From assembly GCF_900638305.1 (NCBI RefSeq), contig NZ_LR134506.1, forward strand, positions 62,001 through 126,000: 64,000 nucleotides of DNA, written 5' to 3'. The translations under genes and the position numbers were made by a program. The notes under the pieces were generated by a model, which did no database searches, was not told where the DNA came from, and worked only from the letters and a program-made list of their open reading frames with translations. Source of the DNA: Porphyromonas cangingivalis. GTDB lineage: Bacteria > Bacteroidota > Bacteroidia > Bacteroidales > Porphyromonadaceae. Positions 663-39,289 of the stretch are shown here, piece by piece. Position 1 is the first letter of the stretch, and each line of letters begins with the position of its first letter.

Positions 663-1922
663 ATGAGATCCCTCTCGATGAACATCTATGATATGACACT
701 GAAGGCTTACTTTGGTGTCATTCGTCTTATAGCCTCGCGTCATCGCAAGGCTGGACTGATGACAAGTGGTCGAAAAGGACTGCTCGACAAGCTCAGAGCA
801 CAACGAAAGCCCGGTGATCGTTATATATGGATCCATGCTTCATCCCTCGGAGAGTTTGAGCAGGGGAGACCTTTGATAGAAAAGCTCAAGGAGAAACACC
901 CCGAGTACAAGATCTGTCTCACCTTCTTCTCACCGTCCGGCTATGAGGTACGTAAGGACTATCCCTTGGCAGATATTGTCACCTACATCCCCTACGACAC
1001 ATCATCGGATCTCAGGCCTTTCATTGATATCCTTTCGCCCGAGAAGGCGATATTCATCAAGTATGAGATCTGGCTCAATACCCTCTTCTACCTCAAAGAA
1101 AAAGGGATCCCGACTTATCTGATCTCTGCAATCTTCCGTCCGACACAGATATTCTTCAAGTTTTATGGGAGGATCTTTCGAGATGCTTTGCGCTGTTATT
1201 CTTGGATCTTTGTCCAGAATGAGGACTCTTTCAAGCTCCTGAAAAGTATTGGTGTAGATGGTTTGTCTATAGCTGGGGATACTCGTACCGATAGAGTATG
1301 GGACATCAAGAACAATGCCAAAGATGATGCCTTTGTCGAGGCTTTCGTTGGTGAAGCACACGCACAAGGACAAAAAGTCATGATGGTCGGAAGTTCATGG
1401 GAGGAGGACGAGAGGGTTTATCTCCCTGCTCTGATCCATGATGACAGGTGGCGAGTGATCATCGTGCCACACGAGATTACGGAAAAGCACATAAAGAGCA
1501 TAAGAGATACCGTACCCAATAGTATCAATGTCGCTCTGCACACAGAGAGCCCGACAGTCGAAGCCTTGAAGGAGACACGAGTCCTCATTGTCGATCGTAT
1601 GGGGCTGTTGTCGTCACTCTATAAGTACACCGATATGGCTTATATCGGTGGGGGATTTGGTAGGGGTATTCATAATACTCTCGAAGCTGCGGTGTATGAT
1701 TGTCCTATACTCTTTGGCCCCAACCATCATAAGTTTATGGAGGCCAAAGCTCTCTTAGCTTGTGGCGCGGCATTTTCTGTCAACTCGACAGAAGACGTGA
1801 TCGCATACCTCAATCTCCTTTTTGATGAAAACGCCCGACAGAGCATCGGAGCGAAAGCCGGAGCATATATCCGATCCAACCTTGGATCCACCGACATTAT
1901 CATCAAGGGGATTTTCAAATAG
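663..1922 (+). CDS. waaA: 3-deoxy-D-manno-octulosonic acid (Kdo) transferase
   Basis: The enzyme transfers Kdo from CMP-Kdo to lipid A precursor at the inner face of the inner membrane, starting the LPS core. The 419-residue length is normal for WaaA. Family blocks seen are IWIHASSLGEFEQ near residue 55, the IFIKYEIW block near 135, FVQNEDSFKLL and GDTRTDR near 200, and YIGGGFGRGIHNTLEAAVY near 325, which marks the nucleotide-sugar site of GT-B enzymes. The start could be 663 or the in-frame ATG at 678. An N-terminal hydrophobic stretch is consistent with membrane association. Confidence 0.92.
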   Translation: MRSLSMNIYDMTLKAYFGVIRLIASRHRKAGLMTSGRKGLLDKLRAQRKPGDRYIWIHASSLGEFEQGRPLIEKLKEKHPEYKICLTFFSPSGYEVRKDYPLADIVTYIPYDTSSDLRPFIDILSPEKAIFIKYEIWLNTLFYLKEKGIPTYLISAIFRPTQIFFKFYGRIFRDALRCYSWIFVQNEDSFKLLKSIGVDGLSIAGDTRTDRVWDIKNNAKDDAFVEAFVGEAHAQGQKVMMVGSSWEEDERVYLPALIHDDRWRVIIVPHEITEKHIKSIRDTVPNSINVALHTESPTVEALKETRVLIVDRMGLLSSLYKYTDMAYIGGGFGRGIHNTLEAAVYDCPILFGPNHHKFMEAKALLACGAAFSVNSTEDVIAYLNLLFDENARQSIGAKAGAYIRSNLGSTDIIIKGIFK

Positions 1923-1955
1923 TTGTTTTTTTACCTTTAGTTAATCACAAGAGTT

Positions 1956-2888
1956 ATGAGCCTTCTTAATATCGATAAGACGAAAGCCATAGGGCATATT
2001 GCCATCCTTGGAGCAAACATCGCTTTTGCCGTTAATATCCCTATTGCCAAGACTCTCGTAGGGCCTGAGGGGATTCATCCGCTGGCTATTTCGTTTTTTC
2101 GATTTACGGGAGCAATGATTTGTTTTTGGCTCGTGTCTCTTCTTCTTCCTCGTGAGAAGGTCTCAAAGAAAGATCTCATCAAGCTCTTTTTTGCCGGTTT
2201 GTGTGCCGTCGGGATCAACCAAGTCCTATTTGCTGTAGCATTGGAGTACACGACGCCACTTGATATCGCTCTCATCAATACCACAGGACCCATCTTTACT
2301 CTCCTCATGGCGACCCTCATTATAAAAGAGCCACTCACTCCACTCAAGGGAGTCGGCGTGGGTTTGGGTGCTGTCGGTGCTGTTTGGCTTGCTCTCCTCT
2401 CCAATAGCTCTGAAGGTACCGAAAGTGGAGGGGTACACACTATTGGTATCATCCTTGTGGCCATAAGCGTCTTGGCCTATGCCATTTATCTTACACTCTT
2501 CAAGGATGTCATCAATAAGTACCATCCCATTACTTTGATGAAGTGGATGTTTACCTTCGCTTTTGTCCTCACGACACCTTTCTTCTTTCCTTTGGTGCTC
2601 AAGTCCGATTTGGGAAGCAAGTCACCTGAGTTTTTCTTTAGTTTGAGCTATGTTGTCGTGTTCGCAACATTCGTCGCCTATCTATTGATCCCCATATCTC
2701 AGAAGAGACTCCGTCCTACTGTCATCAGTATGTATATCTATATTCAGCCTCTCATTGCCGGGGTCGTGTCTATAGCCGTCGGCATGGATGTCTGGCATTG
2801 GAGTAGGGTGCCTGCGATCTTGCTCATCTTTGTCGGAGTTTATCTTGTGACACAAAGTAAAAGCAAGCAGGATCTCCGACAGACCTAA
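1956..2888 (+). CDS. EamA-family (DMT superfamily) transporter
   Basis: This 310-residue protein has about ten hydrophobic segments arranged as two EamA repeats. The first covers roughly residues 13-150 and has the AFAVNIPIAKTLVG and ALEYTTPLDIALINTTGPIFT blocks typical of drug/metabolite transporters. The second covers roughly 165-300. Members export or import amino acids, metabolites or drugs, and the substrate cannot be told from sequence. It lies 33 bp after waaA and 46 bp before the purine permease, so co-transcription is possible. Family call firm, function open. Confidence 0.85.
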   Translation: MSLLNIDKTKAIGHIAILGANIAFAVNIPIAKTLVGPEGIHPLAISFFRFTGAMICFWLVSLLLPREKVSKKDLIKLFFAGLCAVGINQVLFAVALEYTTPLDIALINTTGPIFTLLMATLIIKEPLTPLKGVGVGLGAVGAVWLALLSNSSEGTESGGVHTIGIILVAISVLAYAIYLTLFKDVINKYHPITLMKWMFTFAFVLTTPFFFPLVLKSDLGSKSPEFFFSLSYVVVFATFVAYLLIPISQKRLRPTVISMYIYIQPLIAGVVSIAVGMDVWHWSRVPAILLIFVGVYLVTQSKSKQDLRQT

Positions 2889-2934
2889 AGACGATAAAAA
2901 CACAATAAAATTATACCTATCCTAATTCTATCTT

Positions 2935-4254
2935 ATGAACCAAACACCATCTACTGATCTGATCTATTCGGTGGACGACAGACCACCCTTTAAGGATGCC
3001 CTCTTTGCTGCGCTTCAGCATCTTTTGGCCATCTTTGTTGCGATCATCACACCACCTCTCATCATTGCGGATGCTCTTTCGCTTGATCCTGAGACCAAGG
3101 CATTCCTCATTTCTATGGCACTCTTTGTGTCAGGTATCTCCACGTTCGTCCAATGTAGAGGCGTCGGGGGGATAGGGGCACGACTTCTGTGTGTGCAGGG
3201 GACAAGTTTTTCGTTTATCAGTCCTATTATCAGTGCCGGACTTGCAGGAGGATTGCCACTTATTTTTGGTTGTACCATTGCGGCTGCTCCCATTGAAATG
3301 ATCGTAAGTCGGATATTCAAGTATGTCAAGCACATCGTTACACCCATCGTTTCGGGCACCGTTGTTCTTCTTATCGGGTTATCTCTGATCAAGGTCGGAG
3401 TTGTCGCTTGTGGCGGTGGTTTTGATGCCATGGGAGACGGCACATTTGGGCATTGGCACAACCTGCTTGTGGCTGGATCTGTCCTTGTTTCGGTCTTGTT
3501 CTTTAACAAGATGAACAACAAATACCTTCGCATGAGCTCCATAGTCCTTGGTATCATTGTCGGTTATATCGTAGCCATGTCCCTTGGCATGGTGGACTAC
3601 TCGCTTATTGAAGGAGCTAAGACCTGGAAGCTCAATGCTCCTCTCCCATTTAAGTACGGTTTTAAGTTCGAATGGGGACACTTCATCGCCCTTGGCATCA
3701 TTTATCTCATTACAGCCATTGAGGCTTCCGGAGACGTTACTGCCAATTCGATGATCTCCGGTCTCAAGATCAGTGGCGACAGTTATCTCAAAAGGGTATC
3801 GGGAGGAGTCATGGCAGATGGCTTCAACTCTCTCCTCGCCGGGGTATTCAACTCTTTCCCCAACTCCATCTTTGCCCAAAACAATGGTATCATACAGCTT
3901 ACCGGTGTAGCCAGTCGTTATGTCGGTTATTTCATCGCAGCTATGCTTGTCATTCTTGGATTATTTCCACAAGTCGGAGTGATCTTCTCCATGATGCCCG
4001 ATCCGGTACTTGGCGGGGCGACCTTACTCATGTTTGGCACTGTTGCGGCTGCAGGTATCCGCATCTTGGCTTCTCAAGAAATCGACCGTAGAGCCATCAT
4101 GGTTATAGCTCTCAGTCTCTCTATGGGGCTCGGCGTAGAGTTGGTTCCCGAGATTGTCAAAGCCCTTCCCGAAGGTGTCCGTGGCATCTTCTCATCAGGG
4201 ATCTCTACCGGTGGTCTTGTAGCGATCATCTCCAACACTATCTTCAGAAAATAA
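2935..4254 (+). CDS. NCS2 nucleobase permease, probably xanthine/purine
   Basis: This 439-residue membrane protein belongs to the nucleobase:cation symporter-2 family. The family's short loop motif appears as VQGTSFSFISPI near residue 90, and the second half carries the AIEASGDVTANSMISG block near 265 with its substrate-binding acidic residue. The xanthine phosphoribosyltransferase gene starts 18 bp downstream, so import of xanthine (or xanthine plus guanine) followed by trapping as XMP is the natural reading. The second NCS2 gene of the window (18153) is of the uracil type and clearly different in sequence. Confidence 0.87.
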   Translation: MNQTPSTDLIYSVDDRPPFKDALFAALQHLLAIFVAIITPPLIIADALSLDPETKAFLISMALFVSGISTFVQCRGVGGIGARLLCVQGTSFSFISPIISAGLAGGLPLIFGCTIAAAPIEMIVSRIFKYVKHIVTPIVSGTVVLLIGLSLIKVGVVACGGGFDAMGDGTFGHWHNLLVAGSVLVSVLFFNKMNNKYLRMSSIVLGIIVGYIVAMSLGMVDYSLIEGAKTWKLNAPLPFKYGFKFEWGHFIALGIIYLITAIEASGDVTANSMISGLKISGDSYLKRVSGGVMADGFNSLLAGVFNSFPNSIFAQNNGIIQLTGVASRYVGYFIAAMLVILGLFPQVGVIFSMMPDPVLGGATLLMFGTVAAAGIRILASQEIDRRAIMVIALSLSMGLGVELVPEIVKALPEGVRGIFSSGISTGGLVAIISNTIFRK

Positions 4255-25247: not shown

Positions 25248-26237
25248 ATGGAACTGATACACAAGGTAAACATCCCCAAGCGTGCACAGGGCTACGACCA
25301 CACGACGAGATTCAGTCTATGGGGTTCGTGCTTTTCGTCCGAACTCACTGCGTACCTTCAAGACAACCTTTTCACCGTCCACCCTTCTCCCTTCGGCATC
25401 ATGTACAACCCGGCCTCAATAGCAAAGGGACTGCAGAGGGTGCTGGAGGGAAAAGCTTTCGATGAGAGCGAACTCTTCGAGCAAGATGGTATTTGGTACA
25501 GCAATATGCACCATGGGGATTATGCTTCGCACGATAAGGGGCTTGCCCTGAGTCGTATCAATGAGGACTTGGAACATCTAAAGAATGTGCTCAAGGACAT
25601 CAATGTGTGGGTATTTACTTTTGGTACTTCGTACATCTATGAGGAGGTGAAGACCTCGGAGGTCGTCAATAACTGTCACCGTCGTCCGGCCAAAGACTTC
25701 TCACGTCGCCGACTTTCGGTCGAAGAGATCGTCTCTCTCTGGAAACCTTTGGTCGCAAGACTGCAAGAGGCTGGAGGCGAAGTGATCTTCACCGTCAGTC
25801 CGATCTGCCACTATCGGGACGGTGCACATGAGAGTCGTCTGGGCAAGGCTGTCCTCCTTTTGGCCATCGATGCCCTGCAGGAGGAGTCCTCTCGGGTGGG
25901 GTACTTTCCCTCGTATGAGATCATGATGGACGAGCTCCGAGACTATCGCTTCTATGCCGAAGACCTCGTTCACCCATCTCCCACGGCGGTACGATACATC
26001 ATGGAGCGTTTTGCCGAGACTCATATCGATGCCCTTGCGACAGAGAGCATCCTCACACGCTGGTCAGCCCTTCGTAAACTCCTGGCACATAGCCCGATGA
26101 CGACACATCCCGATCGTCTGAGGGCTCATTACTTTTCACTTCTTGAGAAGTTGGAGGCTTTCCGAGCAGAGTGCCCCAACGAAATGATACAGAAGTCCAT
26201 CACACAAGTACAATCCTCTTTGGCGCAAATACGATGA
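25248..26237 (+). CDS. GSCFA-domain protein
   Basis: A 329-residue protein whose N-terminus contains the family name motif, SLWGSCFSSELTAYL near residue 24, followed by PSPFGIMYNPASIA. These proteins have an SGNH-hydrolase-like fold; a serine/glycine block (GSCF), VFTFGTSYIY near 121 and DLVHPSPTAVRYI near 243 (Asp-x-x-His) support a hydrolase or esterase with a Ser/Asp-His catalytic set. Function is not established for the family. It sits between GT90 and MurF-Alr with a 4-bp overlap to the latter, suggesting an envelope glycan role. Confidence 0.82.
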   Translation: MELIHKVNIPKRAQGYDHTTRFSLWGSCFSSELTAYLQDNLFTVHPSPFGIMYNPASIAKGLQRVLEGKAFDESELFEQDGIWYSNMHHGDYASHDKGLALSRINEDLEHLKNVLKDINVWVFTFGTSYIYEEVKTSEVVNNCHRRPAKDFSRRRLSVEEIVSLWKPLVARLQEAGGEVIFTVSPICHYRDGAHESRLGKAVLLLAIDALQEESSRVGYFPSYEIMMDELRDYRFYAEDLVHPSPTAVRYIMERFAETHIDALATESILTRWSALRKLLAHSPMTTHPDRLRAHYFSLLEKLEAFRAECPNEMIQKSITQVQSSLAQIR

Positions 26238-28708
26238 ATGCTTATCCACTATCAACGATCGCTACGATATTAGGTGCGACATTTACTCTTCCCTCGGATC
26301 CGATGATAGACATATTGCTGACAGATAGCCGTTCGCTCACTTATCCCGAGCGTACTCTATTTTTTGCCATAGTCACGCACAAGGGGAATGGTCATGACTA
26401 CATCGATGATCTGTATGCCAAGGGGGTAAGATCTTTCGTCGTTTCCGAGAGACAGCATTCTGCGAAGTATCCGGAGGCTTTCTTCATCGAGGTGCCCGAC
26501 GTGCTGAGGGCCTTGCAGCAAGTAGCTACAGCCCATCGTGGATCCTTGAAGATGCCTGTGGTGGGGATTACGGGAAGTAATGGAAAGACCACACTCAAAG
26601 AGATATTGTATCAGTTGCTTCACTCTCGTATGAGGGTGGGACGCTCACCTAAGAGTTACAACTCTTCGATAGGAGTTCCGCTTTCTCTCTGGAGTATACA
26701 GCAGACTGACGAGATAGCTTTCATCGAGGCCGGTATATCTCTTCCCAATGAGATGGAGGTATTGGCGAAGATGATATCGCCTACATTTGGGATCATCACG
26801 AATATAGGTGAGGCACATCAGGAGAACTTCTCTTCTCTTCGACATAAATGTCTCGAAAAGCTCAAACTCTTTGCGGATACAGAGACGATAGTTTACTGTG
26901 CCGATGACGAGCTCATCCGGGAAGGACTGGAGGACTCGGGGCTTCTCTCAAGAGCCATCGGCTGGAGTCGTAAGGATCGGAGTGCTCCGGTCTTTGTCCG
27001 TTCGGTCGAGACAGAGCGTGATTATACTCTCCTTCGTCTTTCCATCCGAGGGGGTGAGGAGACTTATCGCATCTCCTATACCGACGAGGGCTCGATACAT
27101 GATGTCCTTTTGGCGATAACTTTTTTGCAGAAAGTTTGTCCCGAAGTCTTGTCGGACAAGGATGCGTTTGCACATCTCGACCCCATATCTATGCGTCTCG
27201 AAGTCATCGAGGGTAATGATGAGATGATGCTCATCAATGATACCTACAATTCCGACTTCGACTCCTTCAGCATAGCCCTCGACTATATGACTCGCCGTAA
27301 TACTGAGGCAAGGCCTACCGTGCTCATCGTGTCGGACATCCATGAGAGTGGGACTCCGCCTGCGACTCTTTATGCTCGTATGGCGGAGCTTGTCGCACGG
27401 CATGAGATCTCTGAGGTCTATGCCATTGGTGACGAACTGCAGGAGCACAGACAGTTTTTCTCCGTTCCCACGACGTGCTATCGTAGTACCGATGACTTCA
27501 TTGCCTCCTTGCCACGTACAGACTTGCATGGGAAGGTCGTCCTCCTCAAAGGGGCAAGATCTGCGAGGTTCGAGAAGATCGTTCGGACGCTCGAAAAGAG
27601 GACTCATCAGACGATTCTCGACGTCAATCTCAGCAACCTCGTTCACAACTTCAATCACTACAAGGCGAGAGTCCCTCAAGGGACACGCATTGTCTGCATG
27701 GTCAAAGCTTTTGGTTATGGCGTCGGCTCTTATGAGATAGCACGTACGCTCCAGGAACAAAGATGTGATTACCTTGCGGTAGCTGTCGTCGATGAGGGCA
27801 AGGCTCTAAGAGAAAAGGGAATAAGTATGCCTATCATGGTCATGAATCCTGAACGCTCAGCTTTTGCCCGACTTATAGAGTACAGACTCCAACCCGAGAT
27901 ATACAGTCTCTCTCTCCTCGAAGACTTCATCAAGGTTGCGGATGCCCTTGGTGAGCATCATTATCCGATACACCTTAAATGGGATACCGGTATGCACCGA
28001 ATGGGACTTGACCCCGGGATGATTGATGACCTCTTGGCTTTGCTGCAGCAGACCTCCTCAGTACGTGTGGCTTCGATCTTCACCCATCTGGCGGTGGCCG
28101 ATGACAAGACTGAGGATGCTTTTACTCTACAACAGTTGTCCAAGCTCCAAGGGGTCTCACACCGACTTTCTGCAGAGTTGCCCTATCCCTTCTATACCCA
28201 TGCTCTGAATACGGCTGGTATTACGAGATTTGCCGATCATGCCATGGACATGGTACGCTTGGGGATCGGGCTTTACGGAATTTCGCCCATAGCTGACGAA
28301 GCTGAAGGACTACGCCCTGTCGCAGGGTTGCGTACCGTGATCCTCCAAGTGCAGAATGTCCCGGCAGAAGATACCATTGGTTATGGACGGAGGGGGAAAG
28401 TGTCTCGTCCTTCACGTATAGCTGTCATCCCGATCGGCTATGCGGATGGTATAGACCGCAAGCTCGGCAATGGTAACATCTCCTTCCGCACGGCAGATGG
28501 TACACTTGTCCCTACAATCGGCAACATCTGTATGGATACCCTCATGCTCGATGTCACCGACGCCCCTTCTGCGATCGAAGGTGCAGAAATCACGGTCTTC
28601 GATGACACCTTACCCATCGAACGCATATCCGACAAGATCGGAACCATCCCTTATGAGATTCTCTCCCGCCTATCTCCACGTGTCGCCCGACGTTACTTCA
28701 ACGAGTAA
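26234..28708 (+). CDS. Bifunctional MurF ligase / alanine racemase fusion
   Basis: An 824-residue fusion. Residues 1-~450 are MurF, the UDP-MurNAc-tripeptide:D-Ala-D-Ala ligase, with the ATP loop GITGSNGKTT at 111-120, YNSSIGVPLSLW, and ITNIGEAHQENF. Residues ~455-824 are alanine racemase, with the PLP lysine in CMVKAFGYGVG near 491 and the second catalytic Tyr in DTIGYGRRG near 717. This fusion is frequent in Bacteroidota: one polypeptide makes D-Ala and uses D-Ala-D-Ala in peptidoglycan synthesis. The start at 26234 overlaps the GSCFA stop (ATGA), preferred over 26171. Confidence 0.93.
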   Translation: MNAYPLSTIATILGATFTLPSDPMIDILLTDSRSLTYPERTLFFAIVTHKGNGHDYIDDLYAKGVRSFVVSERQHSAKYPEAFFIEVPDVLRALQQVATAHRGSLKMPVVGITGSNGKTTLKEILYQLLHSRMRVGRSPKSYNSSIGVPLSLWSIQQTDEIAFIEAGISLPNEMEVLAKMISPTFGIITNIGEAHQENFSSLRHKCLEKLKLFADTETIVYCADDELIREGLEDSGLLSRAIGWSRKDRSAPVFVRSVETERDYTLLRLSIRGGEETYRISYTDEGSIHDVLLAITFLQKVCPEVLSDKDAFAHLDPISMRLEVIEGNDEMMLINDTYNSDFDSFSIALDYMTRRNTEARPTVLIVSDIHESGTPPATLYARMAELVARHEISEVYAIGDELQEHRQFFSVPTTCYRSTDDFIASLPRTDLHGKVVLLKGARSARFEKIVRTLEKRTHQTILDVNLSNLVHNFNHYKARVPQGTRIVCMVKAFGYGVGSYEIARTLQEQRCDYLAVAVVDEGKALREKGISMPIMVMNPERSAFARLIEYRLQPEIYSLSLLEDFIKVADALGEHHYPIHLKWDTGMHRMGLDPGMIDDLLALLQQTSSVRVASIFTHLAVADDKTEDAFTLQQLSKLQGVSHRLSAELPYPFYTHALNTAGITRFADHAMDMVRLGIGLYGISPIADEAEGLRPVAGLRTVILQVQNVPAEDTIGYGRRGKVSRPSRIAVIPIGYADGIDRKLGNGNISFRTADGTLVPTIGNICMDTLMLDVTDAPSAIEGAEITVFDDTLPIERISDKIGTIPYEILSRLSPRVARRYFNE

Positions 28709-28976: not shown

Positions 28977-29909
28977 CTACAAGGACCAAGTAAGCCCTAA
29001 ACGAATCATATTAAATTCATTAAGCTTGTGCTTGTCATAGGCCCCATCTAGTGAGATACCTTTATAGTTGAGGCCTAACCCCAAGGTCAATATATTGCCA
29101 TAAGGAGACAATATGTAACCACTGCGAATACTTAATATCTTTCCAGGACATACTTCTCCTCCGAAATTATAGATCAACCTTTTGTCTTCGTTACCTGTAA
29201 ACAAATATCGGATACCTGCTCCAAAGGTGAGATTGCGTCCTTTCAAGATAGTTACACTACTTCCAAGTCTAGCGAGTGTGGGTTGCTTGAAGCTCTCTCC
29301 AGACTTTGCATACTTCACGTTAGAGCCAAAATTCTCCACAGAGAAACCTAACATGAAGTCTCCAAAGTTGTCAGAAAAACCGAGCCTACGATAGTCAGCC
29401 CCCAGAGATGCTGTCACAACATCAGCTGTCACCGAGTTGTAAGATTGTAGATACCCTATACGTCCCCAACCGGAAAAACTCTCTCCAAAAAGACGGGTAT
29501 AACCTAAATCCACGGCCCAGTCTCGTGGATGGATGCTTCCACGTGTGACACCTTGGGCATTGATATAAGGTACCTCCATACCTCCTAAGTAACGCCAACC
29601 TAAGTAAAACCCTTGGTATTGATCCAAGCGATATCCCGCTGAAGCTTGGTGATATGTGATGCGATGAGCATCTGTATGAGGGCGGACTCCTATCTGATAG
29701 CTGAACCGTAAACTTCTGGTACCATACAATAGGCTGGTTGGGGTTGAATAGAAGCTACTATGAATGCTGTGGATAGGATTTACTCCGGCCATACCAGCCG
29801 AGCGCATATCATTTCCCATGCCCAAAATGGGAAGGGTTTGTGTCTGAGCACTTAATGTCGTGCCCAAAGCGTAGAGACCCAGACATAACAATATGAATTT
29901 CTTTATCAT
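28977..29909 (-). CDS. PorV/PorQ-like outer-membrane barrel
   Basis: A 310-residue protein with a signal peptide (~1-21, LSA-Q) and a barrel-like mature part that ends in an aromatic-rich strand (MIRLGLTWSL). The N-terminal motif GMGNDMRSAGMAG, and FSVENFGSNVKY, QPTLARLGSS and SIRSGYILSP later, resemble the PorV/PorQ family of FadL-like barrels linked to type IX secretion. It is shorter than PorV (~390) and may be a dedicated partner of the subtilase encoded just before it (15-bp gap). It is not obviously PorV or PorQ itself. Confidence 0.65.
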   Translation of the reverse strand: MIKKFILLCLGLYALGTTLSAQTQTLPILGMGNDMRSAGMAGVNPIHSIHSSFYSTPTSLLYGTRSLRFSYQIGVRPHTDAHRITYHQASAGYRLDQYQGFYLGWRYLGGMEVPYINAQGVTRGSIHPRDWAVDLGYTRLFGESFSGWGRIGYLQSYNSVTADVVTASLGADYRRLGFSDNFGDFMLGFSVENFGSNVKYAKSGESFKQPTLARLGSSVTILKGRNLTFGAGIRYLFTGNEDKRLIYNFGGEVCPGKILSIRSGYILSPYGNILTLGLGLNYKGISLDGAYDKHKLNEFNMIRLGLTWSL

Positions 29910-29924
29910 AAACTATTTGTGATG

Positions 29925-32681
29925 TTAGCGTTTGATGAATGATTGACGATATTCTTTACCCTCTGCGTCTACTCGCAAGATATAAGTGCCCGTAGACAAG
30001 CTACGAACATCTAGTTGAGAGACTGGTTGGCCTTCCGGAAGTGCTATTGTACGACTCAATGCTTCTTCTCCTGATAATGTGAAGATTTGAACGAAAGCCT
30101 GACGCAAGTGTGAGGCAAAACGTATGTTTAACGTAGCGCTGACCGGTATCGGATAAATAACATGTACCAGCTCGTCTTTGACCACTTCTATCTCGAAAAT
30201 GGCTTTAGCTTGCATCCCCTTGGGGTCTGTTGCAGTAATCTCCAGAGCGGTACGTCCAAGGGCTGTCCCACTGACAGTCATGATGGCATCTTCTATGATG
30301 GCTGTTGCATTGCTTGTACCGATATTGCGCACTGTGTACTTGAGGATATCCTTGTTTGCATCAGAGAAGTAAGTGCTGAGATCTATCTTCAGAGGATTTC
30401 GGGATATAGGCAGATAAGCTTTTTCAAATGATTTAATCTGCTTAGGTGCCATGTTTTGATATATTTCAAACTCAATATCTTTCTCTGCTCTGCCTCCGAG
30501 TTCATCAGTAACAACAATCTTGACCTTATATGAGCCTTGTGTGACGACAACTCGGAAATGTAGCTTGAGTTGATCGTTCACGCGCTCTACAGTCACTCCA
30601 TGTGACGGTCCTTCGATTTTATGAGTCCATTTGTGCCCGTCAGGGTCAGATACGGATAGCTTGAGGTCATAACTATCATTGTCGGAGAGACGGATCGCCT
30701 GATGATCGGGGACCGTAATCACAGGATTGTGATTGGATAGAGTTTTTCCCTCCTCGAAGATCGGTTCGCTGACGTTACCCCATCTGTCGTATGCTTCGAT
30801 AGCCAAGTAGTAGTGAGTATCAGGCTTGAGACCTTTCAATTGATAACTTATTATATCTCCTATCTTGGCTGCGGGCTTGGGGACTGTTACTTTATGCACC
30901 TTGACAAACTTTTCTTTGCTCAAGGGCTCTTTGTCCACATAGATGTTGTAACCAAATGCTTTTTGATCGTCGGCATCTGCTGCTACGTACCAAGTCAGAT
31001 CGAGTCCTGTATGAGCAGAAGTGACTTTGTCCCAACGAACGATTTCAGGGGCAGTGGTGGATACTTTTCCTGATATGGCTGCTGCAGCATCTATATAGCC
31101 TATGCCCAAACGTCCGGCATACTCAGGGTTCATCACATTTATATCCACGGCGGAAATGGCGGTCTTGAGACGTTTGATTAGCTCGTCCGCGGTGAATCCC
31201 TGCCCCCCAAACTTAGATACAATCAGGGCTGCAATACCAGACACATGAGGACAAGCCATTGAGGTGCCTTGCATGTAACCATATTCATTGTTCGGAAGTG
31301 TGCTAAGTACTTGCCCTCTGTGTTGATAAATATCTCCACCAGGAGCCATTATGCTTATCCAGTCTCCGCGGTTGGAATATGGAGAAACTCGGAAGTCTGT
31401 ACTCATAGCAGACACAGACACTACTTTGCTATAGGAGGCAGGTGCGGCCATGTAGTCTGTACCTTCATTACCCGCAGCAAAGATCACTACTCCACCCTTC
31501 ATCGGAGAGTTAGGTAACTGATTGCCTTGCTCATCACATCCGGCATTCTTGATGAAGTAGTCGATAGCTTCTTTGGTGGAGAGCGGGATCCTTGTTGAGC
31601 CTGGCGTCCCCCAGGAGTTTTGGCTGATTACGGCTCCATTGTCTGCCCCATACTTAATGGCTTGTGCAAATCCACTACCTTTCAACTTCTTGTCTCTGGG
31701 ATCTACATCAAATGTCTGGCAGGACATAAGCTTTACTCCGGAGCCGATCTCACCGTTACCGCCTGCCACACCACATACACCGATGCCGTTGTTGTTGCGT
31801 GCAGCCACAGTCCCGGCTACGTGTGTCCCGTGATCAACCGGGTTTATAGTTCCTTCTCTAAGGTAGAAGTTATAGCCATAAATATCATCGACATGCCCAT
31901 TACCATCATCGTCTTTACCTTTTACTCCATTGAGCTCTGCCTCGTTGATATACATATTATCTTTGAGGTCTTCGTGCTTGACATCGATACCTCCGTCCAC
32001 GATGGATACGATCACTTCTGACTTCCCGGACTCATTCTTCCAGGCTTCAAATAGATTGATATCGGCTCCGACCTTGGATCTGATGAGGCTCCCATCGTTA
32101 TGATAGTGCCATTGCCCGGGTAGCATAGGATCATTCATCGGCAGTGTGGTAGCACTTCTCAAGCTTCTGACTTGCCCCATCTCAAATTTTACAGCCTTTG
32201 TCTGAGGAATCTTGGGAGTATACACAAGCTCTGTAGCTGTGACACCTGATGACTTCTCAATCAATGCCATTGCTCTGTCACGCGCAGCCATGAGTTCGGC
32301 TTCCGAGCCTTCATTCTCGAGAGTGATATCATACCAAAGATGCAACCCGGCACGTCTGGTACGTTCCTCATATTTTCCCGCATGAGGAAAAACTCGCTCC
32401 ATATGCGTAGCTTTGATCTCCTCAAGTATTGGTATAGAGTGAGTTTCCGACTTGTTTGCAGACTCTCGTTGTTCTTGGAGCAGATGTTCTATCCTTTCTC
32501 CTTCTACTTCAGAGAAGCGAACACGAATTACATTGGGTAATGTTTCTTCGGTATTGTCCACAATTGTTTCTATTGCCAATTGTTCCGGATCTTGAACCGG
32601 AAGATCTAGATCGTCCTGACGACAACCACCCAGAGTCATCGAAACTCCAAGCAGTGTCAAGAGAATATATTTTTTGTTCAT
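29925..32681 (-). CDS. Subtilisin-like (S8) protease, lipobox plus T9SS sorting domain
   Basis: A 918-residue protease precursor. An N-terminal lipobox ends at Cys20 (LGGC) followed by acidic residues, as in surface-exported lipoproteins. A propeptide-like segment spans ~48-175. The S8 catalytic set is Asp229 (IVDGGID), His287 (HGTHVAG), oxyanion Asn355 (QNSWG) and Ser474 (GTSMACPHVSG). A fibronectin-III-like segment (~545-660) and cadherin-like beta segments follow. The last ~75 residues (YPIPVSATLNIRF ... TGTYILRVDAEGKEYRQSFIKR region) are a type A T9SS C-terminal signal. The combination of lipobox and T9SS domain is unusual. It is the fourth gene of the BACON operon. Confidence 0.88.
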   Translation of the reverse strand: MNKKYILLTLLGVSMTLGGCRQDDLDLPVQDPEQLAIETIVDNTEETLPNVIRVRFSEVEGERIEHLLQEQRESANKSETHSIPILEEIKATHMERVFPHAGKYEERTRRAGLHLWYDITLENEGSEAELMAARDRAMALIEKSSGVTATELVYTPKIPQTKAVKFEMGQVRSLRSATTLPMNDPMLPGQWHYHNDGSLIRSKVGADINLFEAWKNESGKSEVIVSIVDGGIDVKHEDLKDNMYINEAELNGVKGKDDDGNGHVDDIYGYNFYLREGTINPVDHGTHVAGTVAARNNNGIGVCGVAGGNGEIGSGVKLMSCQTFDVDPRDKKLKGSGFAQAIKYGADNGAVISQNSWGTPGSTRIPLSTKEAIDYFIKNAGCDEQGNQLPNSPMKGGVVIFAAGNEGTDYMAAPASYSKVVSVSAMSTDFRVSPYSNRGDWISIMAPGGDIYQHRGQVLSTLPNNEYGYMQGTSMACPHVSGIAALIVSKFGGQGFTADELIKRLKTAISAVDINVMNPEYAGRLGIGYIDAAAAISGKVSTTAPEIVRWDKVTSAHTGLDLTWYVAADADDQKAFGYNIYVDKEPLSKEKFVKVHKVTVPKPAAKIGDIISYQLKGLKPDTHYYLAIEAYDRWGNVSEPIFEEGKTLSNHNPVITVPDHQAIRLSDNDSYDLKLSVSDPDGHKWTHKIEGPSHGVTVERVNDQLKLHFRVVVTQGSYKVKIVVTDELGGRAEKDIEFEIYQNMAPKQIKSFEKAYLPISRNPLKIDLSTYFSDANKDILKYTVRNIGTSNATAIIEDAIMTVSGTALGRTALEITATDPKGMQAKAIFEIEVVKDELVHVIYPIPVSATLNIRFASHLRQAFVQIFTLSGEEALSRTIALPEGQPVSQLDVRSLSTGTYILRVDAEGKEYRQSFIKR

Positions 32682-32699
32682 TGCCTTTTGGGGTTATAA

Positions 32700-34214
32700 T
32701 TATGGTGTAACACTCATTGTGACGGATGCCTTCCCTGACTCCATTACCACTTTTATGTTGTATGAGTTGCCGGTCTCCGGGTTATTGAAGATATGTCCTT
32801 CTCCGCTTTTTCCCAGATATTTCATTTTGGATTTGGTGCATAGTTGCATAAATTCATCCGTGAGATAGTAAATGCCGTCCTTCTCCCAGAAGAACTTATT
32901 TGTGTCGCTTGCTCTGAACTTGAGTGAAAGTCCTGTGATCTTTTCTCGTCCTTGATCATCGGCAGATGCTTTGAGAGTATAGGTGCTTTTTTCAGGCGCA
33001 AGTGGTTCGGTAGATGTGTAATATATGGTGCGAGTCTTGGAGAATGTACTCACCACACCATCCTTTTTGGTTGTGACACCACCATTGGCTGTTTCCCATT
33101 CATAAATTTTATCCTTGTCATAGTCAACCCATCCAGGAACATTGGAGAGACGACCGGGTAGCTCCTCAAATGTAGGAAATGCTTCCTTCTGATTAGGGAG
33201 GTAAGTGTACAGGATGTGGACGTCCTCACTGTTGTAACTTAGCTTCAGCTCGGCCATCATCTCCATTTTCTTATTAAAGAACCTCCCCGATCCTTCATCT
33301 GGTACAAAGCCATGCTCAATCAGAAAGTCCACAAATTCATCATATACACTCTCCAGCTGATAAAGATTACTGTAAGCATAGGCTTGAGTCATCTTGTCAT
33401 CGACGAAGCGATATTCCATACGAGTGAAGAGTTTACTCTTGGTTACAAACTTACACATGTCCTTATTGATAGCCCCATAAGCACCTGAGTTGTCTCCGGG
33501 TATCCCGACGACGGTACTCTTACGAGCTACCTCAAAGTCTATGAGAGGGTCTATGCTTGTCCCAAACTCCAAGTATGGCAGAATGATGAACATGATCCCT
33601 TTTTGAGTAATCTTCACTGCAAAATTGTCTCCGGTATTGACATCTCTGACTAATATACTCGCAGATCTGTCAGGGCGTTCTTCTGTTTCTGCTACCGTGA
33701 CTTGGATCTCACCCTTGACAATGTTGGAACGTGCTGTCACCCAGTCATCGGAAGATAAGACCACCCAGTTCTTACTATTGGTATACACGGGTATCACAAA
33801 TCTTGATCCCCATTGATCTATCTGAAACTCTGTTTTGCTTGTGTAAATTGACCCATTGGGGTTGTCGGTACTCGTAGTCTGTTTTACAAGGACTTGCTCT
33901 GTGACTAAACCCATGGTGACGATGACTGTGGCCACACGTTCGTATTCTGTGTGATTGACTTTCGCCTTCAAGTGGATCTTGTTTTCAGATTTTGTACACT
34001 CGAGCCAGTCTGAGGATGTGATACAGTTCCATGAGCCTTTAGTTGTCACATTGATGTCGATCTCTCTATTGCTATTGTTGAGAACTACTTCTTTTTGGGA
34101 CAGAGAGAGTTCTGCAGAATTCTCCTCATCCAAAAGTATGTCTCTCGTGCAACCGGATAACCCCATGGTAAGTAGACCAACCAGGGCTATGATGTATTTA
34201 AGTAAATGTTTCAT
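32700..34214 (-). CDS. BACON-domain lipoprotein, paralogue 3
   Basis: A 504-residue lipoprotein (lipid Cys22, LSGC). Two BACON-like beta-sandwich domains occupy ~35-115 and ~125-205, recognised by the pattern of a Trp/Ser-Asp-Trp loop (TSSDWLEC, SSDDWVTA) and strand ends VLVKQ and VKITQKG. After them comes a conserved block FIILPYLEFG ... FEVARKS and a ~290-residue C-terminal region shared with the two neighbouring paralogues, which I do not recognise. BACON domains often bind carbohydrate or mucin or act as spacers. It ends 18 bp before the subtilase. Confidence 0.8.
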   Translation of the reverse strand: MKHLLKYIIALVGLLTMGLSGCTRDILLDEENSAELSLSQKEVVLNNSNREIDINVTTKGSWNCITSSDWLECTKSENKIHLKAKVNHTEYERVATVIVTMGLVTEQVLVKQTTSTDNPNGSIYTSKTEFQIDQWGSRFVIPVYTNSKNWVVLSSDDWVTARSNIVKGEIQVTVAETEERPDRSASILVRDVNTGDNFAVKITQKGIMFIILPYLEFGTSIDPLIDFEVARKSTVVGIPGDNSGAYGAINKDMCKFVTKSKLFTRMEYRFVDDKMTQAYAYSNLYQLESVYDEFVDFLIEHGFVPDEGSGRFFNKKMEMMAELKLSYNSEDVHILYTYLPNQKEAFPTFEELPGRLSNVPGWVDYDKDKIYEWETANGGVTTKKDGVVSTFSKTRTIYYTSTEPLAPEKSTYTLKASADDQGREKITGLSLKFRASDTNKFFWEKDGIYYLTDEFMQLCTKSKMKYLGKSGEGHIFNNPETGNSYNIKVVMESGKASVTMSVTP

Positions 34215-34235
34215 ATTGTTGGGTATCCTATAGGG

Positions 34236-35696
34236 TTAGACTTTGCGATTAACTTGAAACTTGATCTTCAGCATCTTAGGAGATTCTTTCCCTTTTTCAG
34301 GATATGGGTGCTTTACTTGCTCTATGATCATTTCGGTCTTATTATCCGAAGATACGTAGCCATATCTGAGCTTGACCTCTGAGTAATAGATGAAGTTAAA
34401 CTTATCCTTACGAATAGCCTTACGTAATTCTCTTGTGAGGTAAGTTTTCAGGTTGTCTGCGGTGTACATGTATTTAGGTATGTTTTCATAGTAATGAATA
34501 GCCTCAATCAATGTCCCTGAGGAAGCAAAGTAGTATACATGTAGCTCTTCTTTACCATCATCGGAAGAGCGAAATACAAGTCTTCTTCCTTCCTTTGACA
34601 GACTTGCTACATACTCTCTACCCATGTCACTTTGAGACTTCTTGATTTGATCTATTGTTGTGACATTGAGCTCTATATCTTCCAGTGGCAGGGCATCAAT
34701 CGGCTGTATGACTCCCTTTTCTATAGGATAATATGTATAAAGGACATGGTTGGATTTAAGCTCTGCCTCTGATTGGTGTTTTGTTGAGTAATAAATATCA
34801 TTACCTTCGTGATCGAATCCTTCATTCGACAGATACTTGTAGAAGTCTTTCTTGTCATCATCGGAAGCCATCTTCCTGGCATCGAAAAATACCTGACTAC
34901 TCGTGATAGTCTCGTCTATATCTACTGTATATACTATGTTACGGAAAAGCGGACTGATCGTCTCGAACTTGTACACCGGGTTGTACTCCGTAGGTCTTTG
35001 TATGAGTTTACTCTTACGATTGGTTTCGAACTCTATAAGTTCTTCCTTGCTACCTTCATAGTTTGTAAACGGAAGGATATGATAGATCATACCTTTCTGT
35101 ACAACCTGAAATCCCTGCTTGATACCGGATGTAGTCTCTGTGACAGTGATAGTAGCATTTCTATCGTATCGAGTGTCATTCGCGATAATCTTGAGTAAGA
35201 TCTGATCGTCTGTATATTTTGGGATGGCCTCAACCCAAGTCTCACTCGACTCCACGAACCATGTGCTTACATTGGTATTGACATCTACCAATATCTCTGC
35301 TCCTCGCTGATCAATCATATCGGGCTGATTGCTTAGCTCCAAAGTCGCTGATGTTCCACGTTGTTCCACGTCGAAGCTGTACACTTGATCAGCAGCGATA
35401 ACTTGTACCTTCGTTTCTCTAGAGGCTGGGCTGATGTTGGCCGAAGCGGATAGTACCATTTCACGTCCTGATGCCTTTACTTGTAGCCAAGAGGCTTTGG
35501 ATATGCAGGTCCACCCTTCTATGTTAGTTTGTACAGAGATGCGATGCTCAGTCGCAGTTGCCTGAAGTGTCAGAAGTCCATCTTGAGATACGATCAATTC
35601 AGTATCTTGCTTTGGAGGAGACACCTGCTCGTCTCTACACGAAGTGGTACATAGAGATGTGGCTAAGATAAGAGCCACTATCAGATAATATTTCAT
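34236..35696 (-). CDS. BACON-domain lipoprotein, paralogue 2
   Basis: A 486-residue lipoprotein whose signal peptide ends TTSC at Cys20 (a less perfect lipobox). The plan equals that of its neighbours: two BACON-like domains at ~32-112 and ~115-200 (SKASWLQV and SSETWVEA loops), then YHILPFTNYEGS ... EFETNRKS and the shared C-terminal region. It overlaps paralogue 1 by 4 bp and is 21 bp from paralogue 3, so translation is probably coupled. Function unknown; an inhibitor, anchor or substrate-binding partner of the co-encoded subtilase is possible. Confidence 0.78.
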   Translation of the reverse strand: MKYYLIVALILATSLCTTSCRDEQVSPPKQDTELIVSQDGLLTLQATATEHRISVQTNIEGWTCISKASWLQVKASGREMVLSASANISPASRETKVQVIAADQVYSFDVEQRGTSATLELSNQPDMIDQRGAEILVDVNTNVSTWFVESSETWVEAIPKYTDDQILLKIIANDTRYDRNATITVTETTSGIKQGFQVVQKGMIYHILPFTNYEGSKEELIEFETNRKSKLIQRPTEYNPVYKFETISPLFRNIVYTVDIDETITSSQVFFDARKMASDDDKKDFYKYLSNEGFDHEGNDIYYSTKHQSEAELKSNHVLYTYYPIEKGVIQPIDALPLEDIELNVTTIDQIKKSQSDMGREYVASLSKEGRRLVFRSSDDGKEELHVYYFASSGTLIEAIHYYENIPKYMYTADNLKTYLTRELRKAIRKDKFNFIYYSEVKLRYGYVSSDNKTEMIIEQVKHPYPEKGKESPKMLKIKFQVNRKV

Positions 35697-37276
35697 AGCT
35701 CTACGTTTGTGATGTTAGTACTTATTTTGTTATTGTTTTCCGATTCTGAGGGAACAGCGGATCGTAATGACGCATTTGTTGTCTTCGGCATCGGGATATA
35801 GTTTATCCGCATCAATCTGCGAGCCCCCATTACTATGGTTCTGACGATGATTATTACTTCCTTGTTTGTGTTCTTAAAGTAATAACCCCTATTGTTCGGA
35901 TAGAAGTACATAAACTCAAATCCCTCGCGCTTTAGCAAATCTTTGAATTCATTGGTCAAATACTCCATACCTCCATGTCTGTATACCCCTAGCTTGTAAT
36001 CTGTATAGAAGTACAGATATCCTGATACCACAAGCTTCTCCGGATCCGGAGACTTACTGATATTATCGAAGAAATATCCTCTGGCATAGAATGGATCATC
36101 CACAAAGAAGAGTGGTAAACGGTACAATTTAGAAAACTCTTCATCGTACTTACCCCCATGGGCGTTTTCCCAGGCTTCGACATCTTGGACTGTAGCCTCG
36201 CCAAATCGTAGTATTCCGGTCTCTAAATCAGTAAGAGTCGGCATCGGAGCCGGTTGTTCTACTATAGGCCGACAGAATATGACTGATACATCTTTCTGCA
36301 GATCTTTGTCATGGATCGCATATATCGACATGTCGATCTTCTTTTCCTTATGGATATATACGAGTATACCTTTGGTACGACCATCCATAGGAGTAATACG
36401 CTCAAATCCTTGACTTACGAGAAAATCATGGTATTCATTGGTATAAGGGATATTCCTGTCACCTATAAGGGTAGTGGCTTGTAACTTATCAGTACCATAG
36501 TTTTCAAACTCGTATGTTATGAACTGGAAAGACTTGCTCACACTCAGGAAGGTATAGCCCCTATCTCCGACATCAGGATTGGGGGTACCTGCCAATTTAC
36601 TCTTACGAGCAAGCTCTCTCTTCTGTATATTATCAAAACTCATACCCCAGTCCGAAAAGGGCAGGTAGAAGTTTAGTTGACCATCTTGTTTGACTTTGAT
36701 TGTAGTATTTTGACCACCTGCTGAGACAATGATGTCAGCAGTACGAGCATTTGTAGTCTCATTCGCCTTGACCTTTACGACAAGTTCTGCTACTCGAGGA
36801 CGAGCGACAACTTTTATCCACTCTTCTGATGGTTGCTGCACGACCCAATCGGTGGCATTGGATTTGATTATGAGCCTCATCTGTCCCTCCTCCTCTCCAA
36901 AAGCAACCACTGCGGGATCTGTTTCTACTACTAATGTGGGGTAGCCAGCCTGTTCTATCTGCAGAGTCCTTTTGATACCCGAGGAGACGACCAATATTTG
37001 AGCTTTGCGTACATTAAGGGTTTCATTGGATTTTGCATTGATCACGAGATAGTCGCCGGCATGCTTAGCCTCCAGCCAGTCAGCATTACTTGTGGCTGCC
37101 CACTGCCCCTGACTTGAATTCACAGCGATAATCCTTTCGCTGGTGCCAGACTCCAGTTGTATCACTTCATCGGCGTCAATCTTGAGCCAAGAAGAAGTGT
37201 CAATACTGTCTTTCTGACATGAGGATATGAGTAATAAAAGACTCAATATCCCTGAAAAGAATACAGATGTTTTCAT
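35693..37276 (-). CDS. BACON-domain lipoprotein, paralogue 1
   Basis: A 527-residue lipoprotein (Cys20, LLISSC), the first gene of the operon. Two BACON-like domains at ~32-112 and ~115-205 (SNADWLEA loop; EEWIKV loop; ends LQIEQAG and IKVKQDG), then FYLPFSDWG ... RELARKSKL and the shared C-terminal region. The block containing DFLxxxGF followed by charged residues recurs in all three paralogues. The C-terminus is longer than in the others (Asn/Ser-rich tail). The 4-bp ATGA overlap with paralogue 2 indicates one transcript. Confidence 0.8.
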   Translation of the reverse strand: MKTSVFFSGILSLLLLISSCQKDSIDTSSWLKIDADEVIQLESGTSERIIAVNSSQGQWAATSNADWLEAKHAGDYLVINAKSNETLNVRKAQILVVSSGIKRTLQIEQAGYPTLVVETDPAVVAFGEEEGQMRLIIKSNATDWVVQQPSEEWIKVVARPRVAELVVKVKANETTNARTADIIVSAGGQNTTIKVKQDGQLNFYLPFSDWGMSFDNIQKRELARKSKLAGTPNPDVGDRGYTFLSVSKSFQFITYEFENYGTDKLQATTLIGDRNIPYTNEYHDFLVSQGFERITPMDGRTKGILVYIHKEKKIDMSIYAIHDKDLQKDVSVIFCRPIVEQPAPMPTLTDLETGILRFGEATVQDVEAWENAHGGKYDEEFSKLYRLPLFFVDDPFYARGYFFDNISKSPDPEKLVVSGYLYFYTDYKLGVYRHGGMEYLTNEFKDLLKREGFEFMYFYPNNRGYYFKNTNKEVIIIVRTIVMGARRLMRINYIPMPKTTNASLRSAVPSESENNNKISTNITNVEL

Positions 37277-38100: not shown

Positions 38101-39252
38101 TTATTTAATCTTCCACTCTTGAAAGTAGGGCAACCTCCTAGCATAAGTTCTCTCAGTCATCTCTCGGGCAACAGATCCTAAGAGGAATACGACGGCATCA
38201 GCCGAGGGGAGAGCCCCACGCATACGTAACGTGCGCTTATAGTTGCGATTGAGACGCTCCACCCAATTCGTTGAGTAAATCATACGACGAACCTCCTCCG
38301 GGTACCTCAGATAGGTGAAGTAGCCTATATTGCGAGGGGAAGACAGAGAGAGTAAACTTCTGTAATTCTTGCCCCAACGCTCTGCAAATGTACATAATTT
38401 CTCAAATGCCTTGATGGGAGTAAGTCCTGTATCCAGAATAGGGAATAAGTCATCCAACTCCTGCTTCATCTGAGCTTTATCCCTCTTTGACACGGCGTTA
38501 AGTGCTTGTCGTTTGAAATGAACAACACATAACTGATGAGCTGCCTGAGGGAAAGCCGAGCAAATAGCGCGTTCAATACCCTGTAAGGCATCTGAGATAA
38601 TCAGGTCTATGTGTTCTACGCCCCGAGTTTTGAGAGCTTTCAACTCCACTTCCCAATTCAATGCTCCCTCTGTGGGATGATTCACCACACAAAGCACCTC
38701 GCGGCTACCATCAGGAAGCAAGCCCAGCATCGTGTAGTAGGCCTCCTTAGAGACACTATCCTCTCGCCGAGTAAAGGCAAACGTCGCATCAATGTATACT
38801 GCCAAATAGTGGGGCGACAATTTGCGTTCTAACCACTCGTATATCTCTGCTTTACTCGTGTTGGAGAGGAAGCTGACTTGCTGTTTACTATAGTGATGAC
38901 CATAGAGGCGTTCGCACACCGTGCCAATATCTTCGCACGAAAGTCCTCGGGTATAAAGTTCATGGAAGAGGAGGGCGCGTTCGCTTTCCTGATGGGAGAG
39001 GATGCCCAAAATCAGGGGCTGAAAATTCCCTGAACGAGTACGTGGAATGCGAAGCTCAAAGCTACAGCCATAGCCCCGCCATCGACGGGGACGGAAACCA
39101 TTGCACTGTTCACCTTTATGTTCTTGGACAAAAAGAGAACGTTCTTGCTTGGAGAAGGTGTTCAATAATACACGAATAAGTTCGTTAATACCTGACTCCG
39201 ATGACAGCATTTCCGAAATAAATGCCGACTTTTGTGATGATGTAAGCTCCAT
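38101..39252 (-). CDS. IS256-family (mutator-type) transposase
   Basis: A 383-residue DDE transposase. The start at 39252 (MELTSSQ) is chosen because a TAAATTTG -7 element at 39289-39282 would put transcription start after the GTG at 39282. Catalytic candidates are Asp in YLAVYIDATFAF, Asp in DLIISDALQGIERA and Glu in the NWVERLNRNYK block; the C(2)H block HQLCVVHFKRQ lies between the last two. The reading frame is intact across the full family length, so the element may be active. Confidence 0.9.
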   Translation of the reverse strand: MELTSSQKSAFISEMLSSESGINELIRVLLNTFSKQERSLFVQEHKGEQCNGFRPRRWRGYGCSFELRIPRTRSGNFQPLILGILSHQESERALLFHELYTRGLSCEDIGTVCERLYGHHYSKQQVSFLSNTSKAEIYEWLERKLSPHYLAVYIDATFAFTRREDSVSKEAYYTMLGLLPDGSREVLCVVNHPTEGALNWEVELKALKTRGVEHIDLIISDALQGIERAICSAFPQAAHQLCVVHFKRQALNAVSKRDKAQMKQELDDLFPILDTGLTPIKAFEKLCTFAERWGKNYRSLLSLSSPRNIGYFTYLRYPEEVRRMIYSTNWVERLNRNYKRTLRMRGALPSADAVVFLLGSVAREMTERTYARRLPYFQEWKIK

Positions 39253-39281
39253 TGTTCTTAGTTTGTTTTTTGTTCTTACCA

Positions 39282-39289
39282 CAAATTTA
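39282..39289 (-). promoter_or_regulatory. Transposase -7 element
   Basis: TAAATTTG on the minus strand inside the IS, 30 bp before the chosen transposase start. Confidence 0.45.

Follow-up and report, generated by a model that had tools for sequence, protein, structure and literature searches.

Why should a protease of Porphyromonas cangingivalis be encoded together with a PorV-family barrel of its own? The question is raised by an operon in the 64-kb stretch of DNA analysed here (the window, bases 62001–126000 of a single-contig genome of 2.40 Mb), in which five minus-strand genes encode, in order, three lipoproteins (A, B and C), a subtilase that combines a lipobox with a type A C-terminal domain (CTD) of the type IX secretion system (T9SS), and a barrel of the PorV family. 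In the excerpts available of PMC12618676, one and the same PorV serves every type A substrate; PorU is described in the literature as cutting type A CTDs and attaching or releasing the cargo. From sequence comparison across related genomes we propose, with moderate confidence, that each barrel of this kind likely serves as the private shuttle of its own lipobox subtilase and anchors it at the surface by an uncleaved CTD.

The operon and its cassettes

The five genes are tightly packed: lipoprotein A (527 amino acids, window positions 35693–37276) overlaps lipoprotein B (486 amino acids, 34236–35696) by 4 bp, 21 bp separate B from lipoprotein C (504 amino acids, 32700–34214), 18 bp separate C from the S8-family subtilase (918 amino acids, 29925–32681), and 15 bp lie between the subtilase and the barrel gene (310 amino acids, 28977–29909). 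A terminator-like hairpin of 13 pairs with a T-rich tail stands just 3' of the barrel gene (28892–28862), at the operon end; the hairpin scan gave 12 terminator-like sites against a shuffle mean of 6.2, and only the strength and position of this one count. An earlier note on this DNA had described the gene order and spacing, the single terminator, a lipobox plus T9SS signal on the subtilase and a PorV/PorQ-like barrel, all of which were reproduced.

Elsewhere in the genome the window subtilase has five full-length paralogues, 37–48% identical to it, and one further match that is partial. Seven genes score over the cut-off of the PorV_fam model, six of them directly beside the six full-length subtilases and the seventh being canonical PorV; because six of the seven adjoin the six paralogous subtilases, the operon is not a chance arrangement. 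The six units, here called cassettes, also hold 21 of the genome's 23 BACON matches, and all four genome-wide matches to the type A CTD model TIGR04183 at E ≤ 0.001 belong to cassette subtilases; the two remaining cassette proteases score more weakly than this limit.

Relatives were sampled as 41 genomes: the genome itself, nine from its genus and 15 from its family (together a family set of 25), and 16 from its order. These contain 46 matches to PF16361 (Peptidase_S8_N), of which 38 are followed on the same strand by a PorV_fam gene 2226–2399 bases after the S8_N match, with anything from a 1-bp overlap to 90 bp between subtilase end and barrel gene start; one of the 46, a frame of 201 amino acids (G008 C5:327153), was excluded from the CTD count given below, which leaves 38 linked and seven unlinked subtilases. 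A member of the BACON-lipoprotein family lies within 9 kb on the same strand in 37 of the 38 cassettes (the exception, L051, begins at a contig end), and one cassette has as many as four lipoprotein genes (L038). The earlier note had proposed conserved co-occurrence in other genomes as a check on its idea of a dedicated protease module with a barrel tied to the subtilase, and the 38 cassettes bear out both the co-occurrence and that part of the idea. Distances among the S8 proteins correlate with those among the barrels (r = 0.81) and among the nearest lipoproteins (r = 0.82, 33 of the 38 cassettes being usable), values reached in neither case by any of 2000 shuffles, and nearest neighbours agree for 27 of the 38 cassettes. 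Since the distances co-vary and nearest neighbours mostly agree, the cassette appears mostly to descend as a unit.

Two of the 38 cassettes open with a SusC/SusD-type pair, that is, a TonB receptor and SusD (L042 6004–10715; L047 1723–6375), which points to nutrient acquisition. Within the stretch examined, the remaining 36 gave no SusD match, and the five window genes, which include neither a TonB receptor nor SusD, do not form a SusCD locus. By eye, a TonB-receptor-like and SusD-like pair was also seen shortly after cassette L019. To judge by these sequences, the cassette is probably a multi-copy surface protease module of Porphyromonas-like bacteria with few other CTD proteins.

The C-terminal domain and its barrel

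The window subtilase begins with a signal peptide and lipobox (32622–32681; LGG-C20 by eye, with Cys20 as lipid-anchor residue), followed by PF16361 (residues 51–197; 32091–32531), a likely prodomain, and the catalytic domain PF00082 (residues 221–508; 31158–32021), and ends in a type A CTD (residues 842–918, including Lys917; 29928–30158) that matches TIGR04183 in a profile search at 30.4 bits, over the cut-off of 23. It also has an Fn3-like region below the Pfam cut-off. Residues D229, H284 and S474, which we assign by motif as the catalytic triad, are invariant in all 38 cassette subtilases, across which identity to the window copy falls to 33%; lysine fills the Lys917 column in 36 of them. 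The C-terminus of the window subtilase reads SFIKR, not KLIKK. Its closest named record found is a protein 80% identical from a Porphyromonas sp. metagenome-assembled genome (a single-sequence contig scan with one locus found), and a viral contig scan with the Phocaeicola subtilase described below, a check for mobile or phage origin, gave no matches.

Acylation is predicted for these proteases: all 38 show a lipobox pattern, often with acidic residues shortly after the cysteine. As control cargo we took 21 CTD proteins from among the 97 CTD matches of three PorU-positive genomes. Our script flagged three of the 21 for a lipobox, two at residues 66–67 (taken as false positives) and a third in which a signal-peptidase-I-like site is present as well; the window subtilase departs from most of these controls in carrying a lipobox pattern instead of a lipobox-free leader. 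One of the four CTD proteins counted outside cassettes in PorU-negative genomes was flagged too, likewise with a signal-peptidase-I-like site. Because the likely prodomain follows the lipobox, removal of that prodomain would take the lipid off as well.

The window barrel, with 14 strands counted on its predicted model, belongs to the PorV_fam subfamily (NF033709, 115.4 bits, cut-off 90), and falls short of both canonical PorV (NF033710, 53.9 bits, cut-off 250) and PorQ (NF033711, 23.1 bits, cut-off 220). In a tree that took in 13 of the 25 canonical PorV and five of the nine PorQ proteins, the 38 cassette barrels form a single clade, sister to canonical PorV; all 38 lie outside the PorQ clade, and we rejected the idea that they are PorQ. 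By model, PorQ accounts for nine extra PorV_fam genes in PorU-positive genomes, and a long, high-scoring PorV-family gene stands away from cassettes in 25 of the 25 family genomes. Loops L1, L2 and L4 keep their PorV lengths in the cassette barrels, and L5 is reduced to 3–7 residues as against 40–48 in canonical PorV. For neither subtilase nor barrel was a type B CTD or PorP/SprF model matched at E ≤ 1, the library's content of such models being unchecked.

What the barrel accompanies is seen most clearly by comparing linked with unlinked subtilases. A type A CTD is present in every PorV-linked subtilase (36 of 38 by TIGR04183 at E ≤ 0.1, the remaining two by their end motif, read by eye), whereas none of the seven full-length subtilases without a PorV neighbour matches TIGR04183 at E ≤ 1 or has the end motif by eye. 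The barrel therefore follows the CTD rather than the protease as such. Three of the seven unlinked genes (L030, L031 and L032) retain a pair of lipoprotein-family genes immediately upstream, so that the lipoproteins can remain where CTD and barrel are both missing.

Sortase, translocon and distant relatives

PorU scores over its cut-off in nine of the 25 family genomes and PorQ in the same nine; weak PorU matches of 17–23 bits in three others (G002, G009, G014) are the CTDs of cassette subtilases. Fourteen of the family's 15 cassette genomes have neither PorU nor PorQ over the cut-off, while Sov is kept in all 15 and present in all 25 family genomes; PorU and cassette are both missing from two genomes (G004, G007). 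CTD matches number 23–45 in a PorU-positive genome as against 0–5 in a PorU-negative one. The window genome has Sov and canonical PorV and gave no PorU match, and cleavage of the CTD by PorU is thus not expected there. Two CTD proteins of 2184 and 2177 amino acids that show no lipobox pattern were seen in two PorU-negative genomes (L104 1388–7942; L105 1319–7852).

The best single Sov match reaches 767–1346 bits in the genus of the window, against 1723–3098 in the sister genus. In a quick Sov tree with a simple model, for which long branches and uneven letter make-up were flagged, the 15 cassette genomes and the two without PorU or cassette form one clade (SH-like approximate likelihood ratio test, SH-aLRT, 100) within which the PorU-positive genome G018 is nested; this nesting suggests that the cassette predates PorU loss in that clade. 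In the window's genus Sov (G000 C1:1704500–1711700, which is L065; L066–L074) is strongly diverged and lies on long branches, with longest frames of 1985–2219 amino acids versus 2236–2517 in the sister genus.

Outside the family, where counts rest on the matches listed and cassettes were not totalled, a lipobox-bearing S8 protease with a PorV-like gene directly downstream recurs in Prevotella sp. oral taxon 299, Phocaeicola massiliensis, G203 (twice), G119 and G133. The CTD is over the cut-off in all four subtilases of the last three genomes; that of Phocaeicola massiliensis (L131) scores 16.2 against the cut-off of 23, and at E ≤ 0.01 the Prevotella subtilase does not match TIGR04183. Sov is present in G203 and G133. 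In G119 the layout is lipoprotein, S8 protease, PorV-like gene and lipoprotein, and no second match to the PorV-like query was found at E ≤ 1e-8 among the matches listed. Lipoproteins beside the pairs of G203 and G119 carry DUF4843, PKD_2 or Calx-beta domains in place of BACON. In G203 the two short barrels beside the S8 genes (L163, L164) are the only matches listed at E ≤ 1e-8, and the genome may lack canonical PorV. Bacteroides ihuae, the named control, gave PorV_fam below the cut-off, a TIGR04183 match and no Sov match.

Short PorV-like genes also occur as orphans, which were excluded from the cassette count. We saw them in G077 (L168 5174–6106), which has no Sov match, in Bacteroides finegoldii (L170 8926–9843, beside an amidase-like gene), and in three Sov-negative genomes of one family (L162 5348–6349 in G209; L167 2792–3790 in G126; G274 C5:67477–68403, locus L165, where the script recovered no PorV-like frame). 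The stretches retrieved from G209, G126 and G077 gave no S8 match, and neither did the annotated genes around the one in Bacteroides finegoldii.

Around the window operon itself, an IS256-family transposase gene (38101–39282, by profile match) lies just upstream, and a transposase that resembles it by eye flanks a second cassette (L008 15705–16856), with a fragment in L017. On the other side, a single long frame of 845 amino acids from a GTG start converges on the operon (26171–28708); by eye alone it looks like a MurF-alanine racemase fusion.

Lipoproteins, rival readings and known systems

The lipoproteins of the window (lipoboxes ISS-C20 in A, TTS-C20 in B and LSG-C22 in C) are the paralogues with two BACON-like domains that the earlier note had described: Pfam finds two BACON stretches in each, and the C-terminal region of about 290 residues that they were said to share is real and internally duplicated (hhalign of its halves, probability 95.8, E 7.8e-9). 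In lipoprotein C this region (residues 206–504; 32703–33599) is predicted to consist of two tandem repeats, each of strands, helix and strands. All three belong to one homologous family that takes in 67 of 80 proteins neighbouring S8 genes, a set that also covers neighbours of unlinked S8 genes, has five manual additions (L012, L052, L039) and leaves out the neighbours of L028. BACON is matched at E ≤ 0.05 in all 61 aligned members, other Pfam matches being confined to one or two members each. No credible NCBIfam match was obtained for the lipoproteins, and a protein search with their alignment returned 10 proteins from 7995 scored candidates, too few to judge spread. Alignments of the 61 lipoproteins and of 35 of the 38 barrels were used for structure prediction; the model of lipoprotein C (predicted local distance difference test, pLDDT, 91; predicted template modelling score, pTM, 0.68) returned from Foldseek and VIA-align almost solely immunoglobulin/BACON-type matches, mainly over residues 33–209, so that its C-terminal region was barely probed.

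How might such a cassette work? The protease would be lipidated and brought to the outer membrane, then translocated by Sov (or by a surface-lipoprotein route), with the loops of the cassette's barrel, not canonical PorV, holding its CTD. Without PorU to cut it, the CTD would stay docked and the barrel would become an anchor. Activation would then strip off both prodomain and N-terminal lipid, as reported for dentilisin PrtP, and leave the mature enzyme held by the docked CTD and the BACON lipoproteins, which would act as assembly or substrate-presenting partners while freed peptides feed uptake. A bolder version is tentative, and we doubt it more than we credit it: the type A CTD may have been turned into a permanent plug in a private PorV-family barrel, one per protease, as an independent anchoring device of sortase-loss lineages that is kept by at least one genome without detected Sov.

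Several observations weigh against the shuttle-and-anchor proposal. One cassette genome, G018, combines two cassettes with PorU, PorQ and 29 CTD matches, and sortase loss is therefore not required. Conversely, at least four CTD proteins lie outside cassettes in PorU-negative genomes (G008, G010, G013, G016), which suggests that canonical PorV probably still has other cargo there. The patterns of cassette and PorU are clustered on the tree, and a Fisher p of 3.4e-4 for their association ignores kinship; with two independent pairs and no significance, in a pattern resting on few events, we rejected PorU loss as a statistically independent correlate of the cassette. Loops L3, L5, L6 and L7 are all shorter in cassette barrels than in PorV, and if L5 is needed for docking to Sov, a shuttle role becomes less likely. 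The unlinked set is small, with seven members of which two come from other families; four of the seven (L027, L028 twice, and L029 with a weak match of 21 bits) have no clear lipoprotein-family neighbour, so that not every such protease is accompanied by the lipoproteins. G119, finally, has a subtilase–barrel pair in a genome 99% complete with no Sov match, a misfit with export by the T9SS only.

The strongest rival is that CTD and barrel act outside the T9SS, the subtilase being an ordinary surface lipoprotein, its CTD a mere docking tag and Sov unneeded. The lipobox pattern of every cassette protease, often followed by acidic residues, would suit such a route, as would the lipoprotein–S8–barrel set of G119 with its lack of a second listed PorV-like match, the lipobox subtilase of Phocaeicola massiliensis with a PorV-like partner and a CTD below the cut-off, and Bacteroides ihuae, which gave no Sov match but did match PorV_fam (below the cut-off) and TIGR04183. 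Yet Sov accompanies the cassette in all 15 cassette genomes of the family, only one Sov-negative genome with the pair was found among 14 examined, G203 of the same family as G119 has Sov, and a divergent Sov could escape detection; we consider a Sov-independent pair unlikely. Less probable still is the earlier note's suggestion that the BACON lipoproteins inhibit the subtilase, as potempins inhibit KLIKK proteases, while the barrel aids export. Adjacency and co-inheritance of lipoprotein and protease speak for it, but searches of Pfam and NCBIfam and other sequence searches placed the lipoprotein C-terminal region in no inhibitor family, the fold search having barely covered that region, and the suggestion gained no support; four lipoprotein genes, the most seen in a cassette, would be a large number of inhibitors for a single enzyme, two cassettes have added SusC/SusD-type genes, and the CTD does not end in KLIKK. 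The canonical-type PorV gene found away from cassettes throughout the family could, in principle, serve all CTDs and make the cassette barrel a redundant copy hitch-hiking with its operon. The complete split in CTD between linked and unlinked subtilases, the single barrel clade with its own loop pattern and an immediate adjacency conserved down to 33% subtilase identity make this the least credible of the readings, and a very improbable one.

The proposal of a private shuttle and anchor also places the cassette among known systems. Type B substrates have cognate shuttles of the PorP/SprF type, whose genes commonly lie just downstream (excerpts of PMC12618676), and there the cognate barrel reportedly receives cargo from the translocon and anchors it (PMC12618676 and PMC9143113, both in excerpt). 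As in the type B pairs SprB/SprF of F. johnsoniae and PG1035/PorP of P. gingivalis, described in the same partial sources, the gene of a CTD cargo is followed directly by that of its own barrel; in the cassette, however, a type A CTD is paired with a PorV-family barrel, and the cargo has a lipobox. The cassette would thus appear to be a type B layout built from type A parts. Cognate PorV-like barrels are supposed, in the available excerpts of PMC10202324, to shield CTDs from cleavage, with PorZ/PorQ as the example, and in the P. gingivalis attachment complex (PorZ-PorQ, PorU-PorV), as far as the excerpts describe it, an uncleaved CTD likewise remains attached to a barrel of the PorV family. 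PorZ and PorU, however, belong to the machinery itself; the cassette cargo is a protease, the pairs reach six in a genome, and 14 of the 15 cassette genomes show neither PorU nor PorQ over the cut-off.

For the lipoproteins, dentilisin (PrcB-PrcA-PrtP) of Treponema denticola is arguably a closer model than the potempins, being an acylated subtilase made with two upstream lipoproteins, and by this analogy the cassette lipoproteins are inferred to be dentilisin-like assembly or substrate partners of the subtilase. In the excerpts available of PMC8167434, PrtP loses its acylated N-terminus and the partner lipoproteins are thought to anchor the surface complex; upstream lipoprotein genes followed by an acylated subtilase are common to both systems, acylation being predicted in the cassette. 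The window subtilase is nevertheless not a dentilisin equivalog (NF033595, 105.5 bits, cut-off 300), its lipoproteins lack a credible NCBIfam match, and those excerpts mention no CTD or barrel for dentilisin. SusCD nutrient loci and RagAB, as far as the partial sources go, share with the cassette the combination of surface lipoproteins and an enzyme in one operon, and a TonB-receptor/SusD pair opens two cassettes; the cassette enzyme differs in being a CTD-tagged protease with its own barrel, and 36 of 38 cassettes lack a SusD match.

We found no description of a private PorV for type A cargo, or of this cassette, in the literature searched, outside which most subscription papers lie. That literature has type A cargo sharing a single PorV, whereas here a genome may encode as many as six such cargo proteins, each beside a PorV-family barrel of its own. 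If the barrel is an anchor, the fate of the cargo would be set by the barrel, as has been argued for type B substrates, and what a PorV-family barrel needs for shuttling or for holding a CTD would become testable with barrels that have and lack loop L5.

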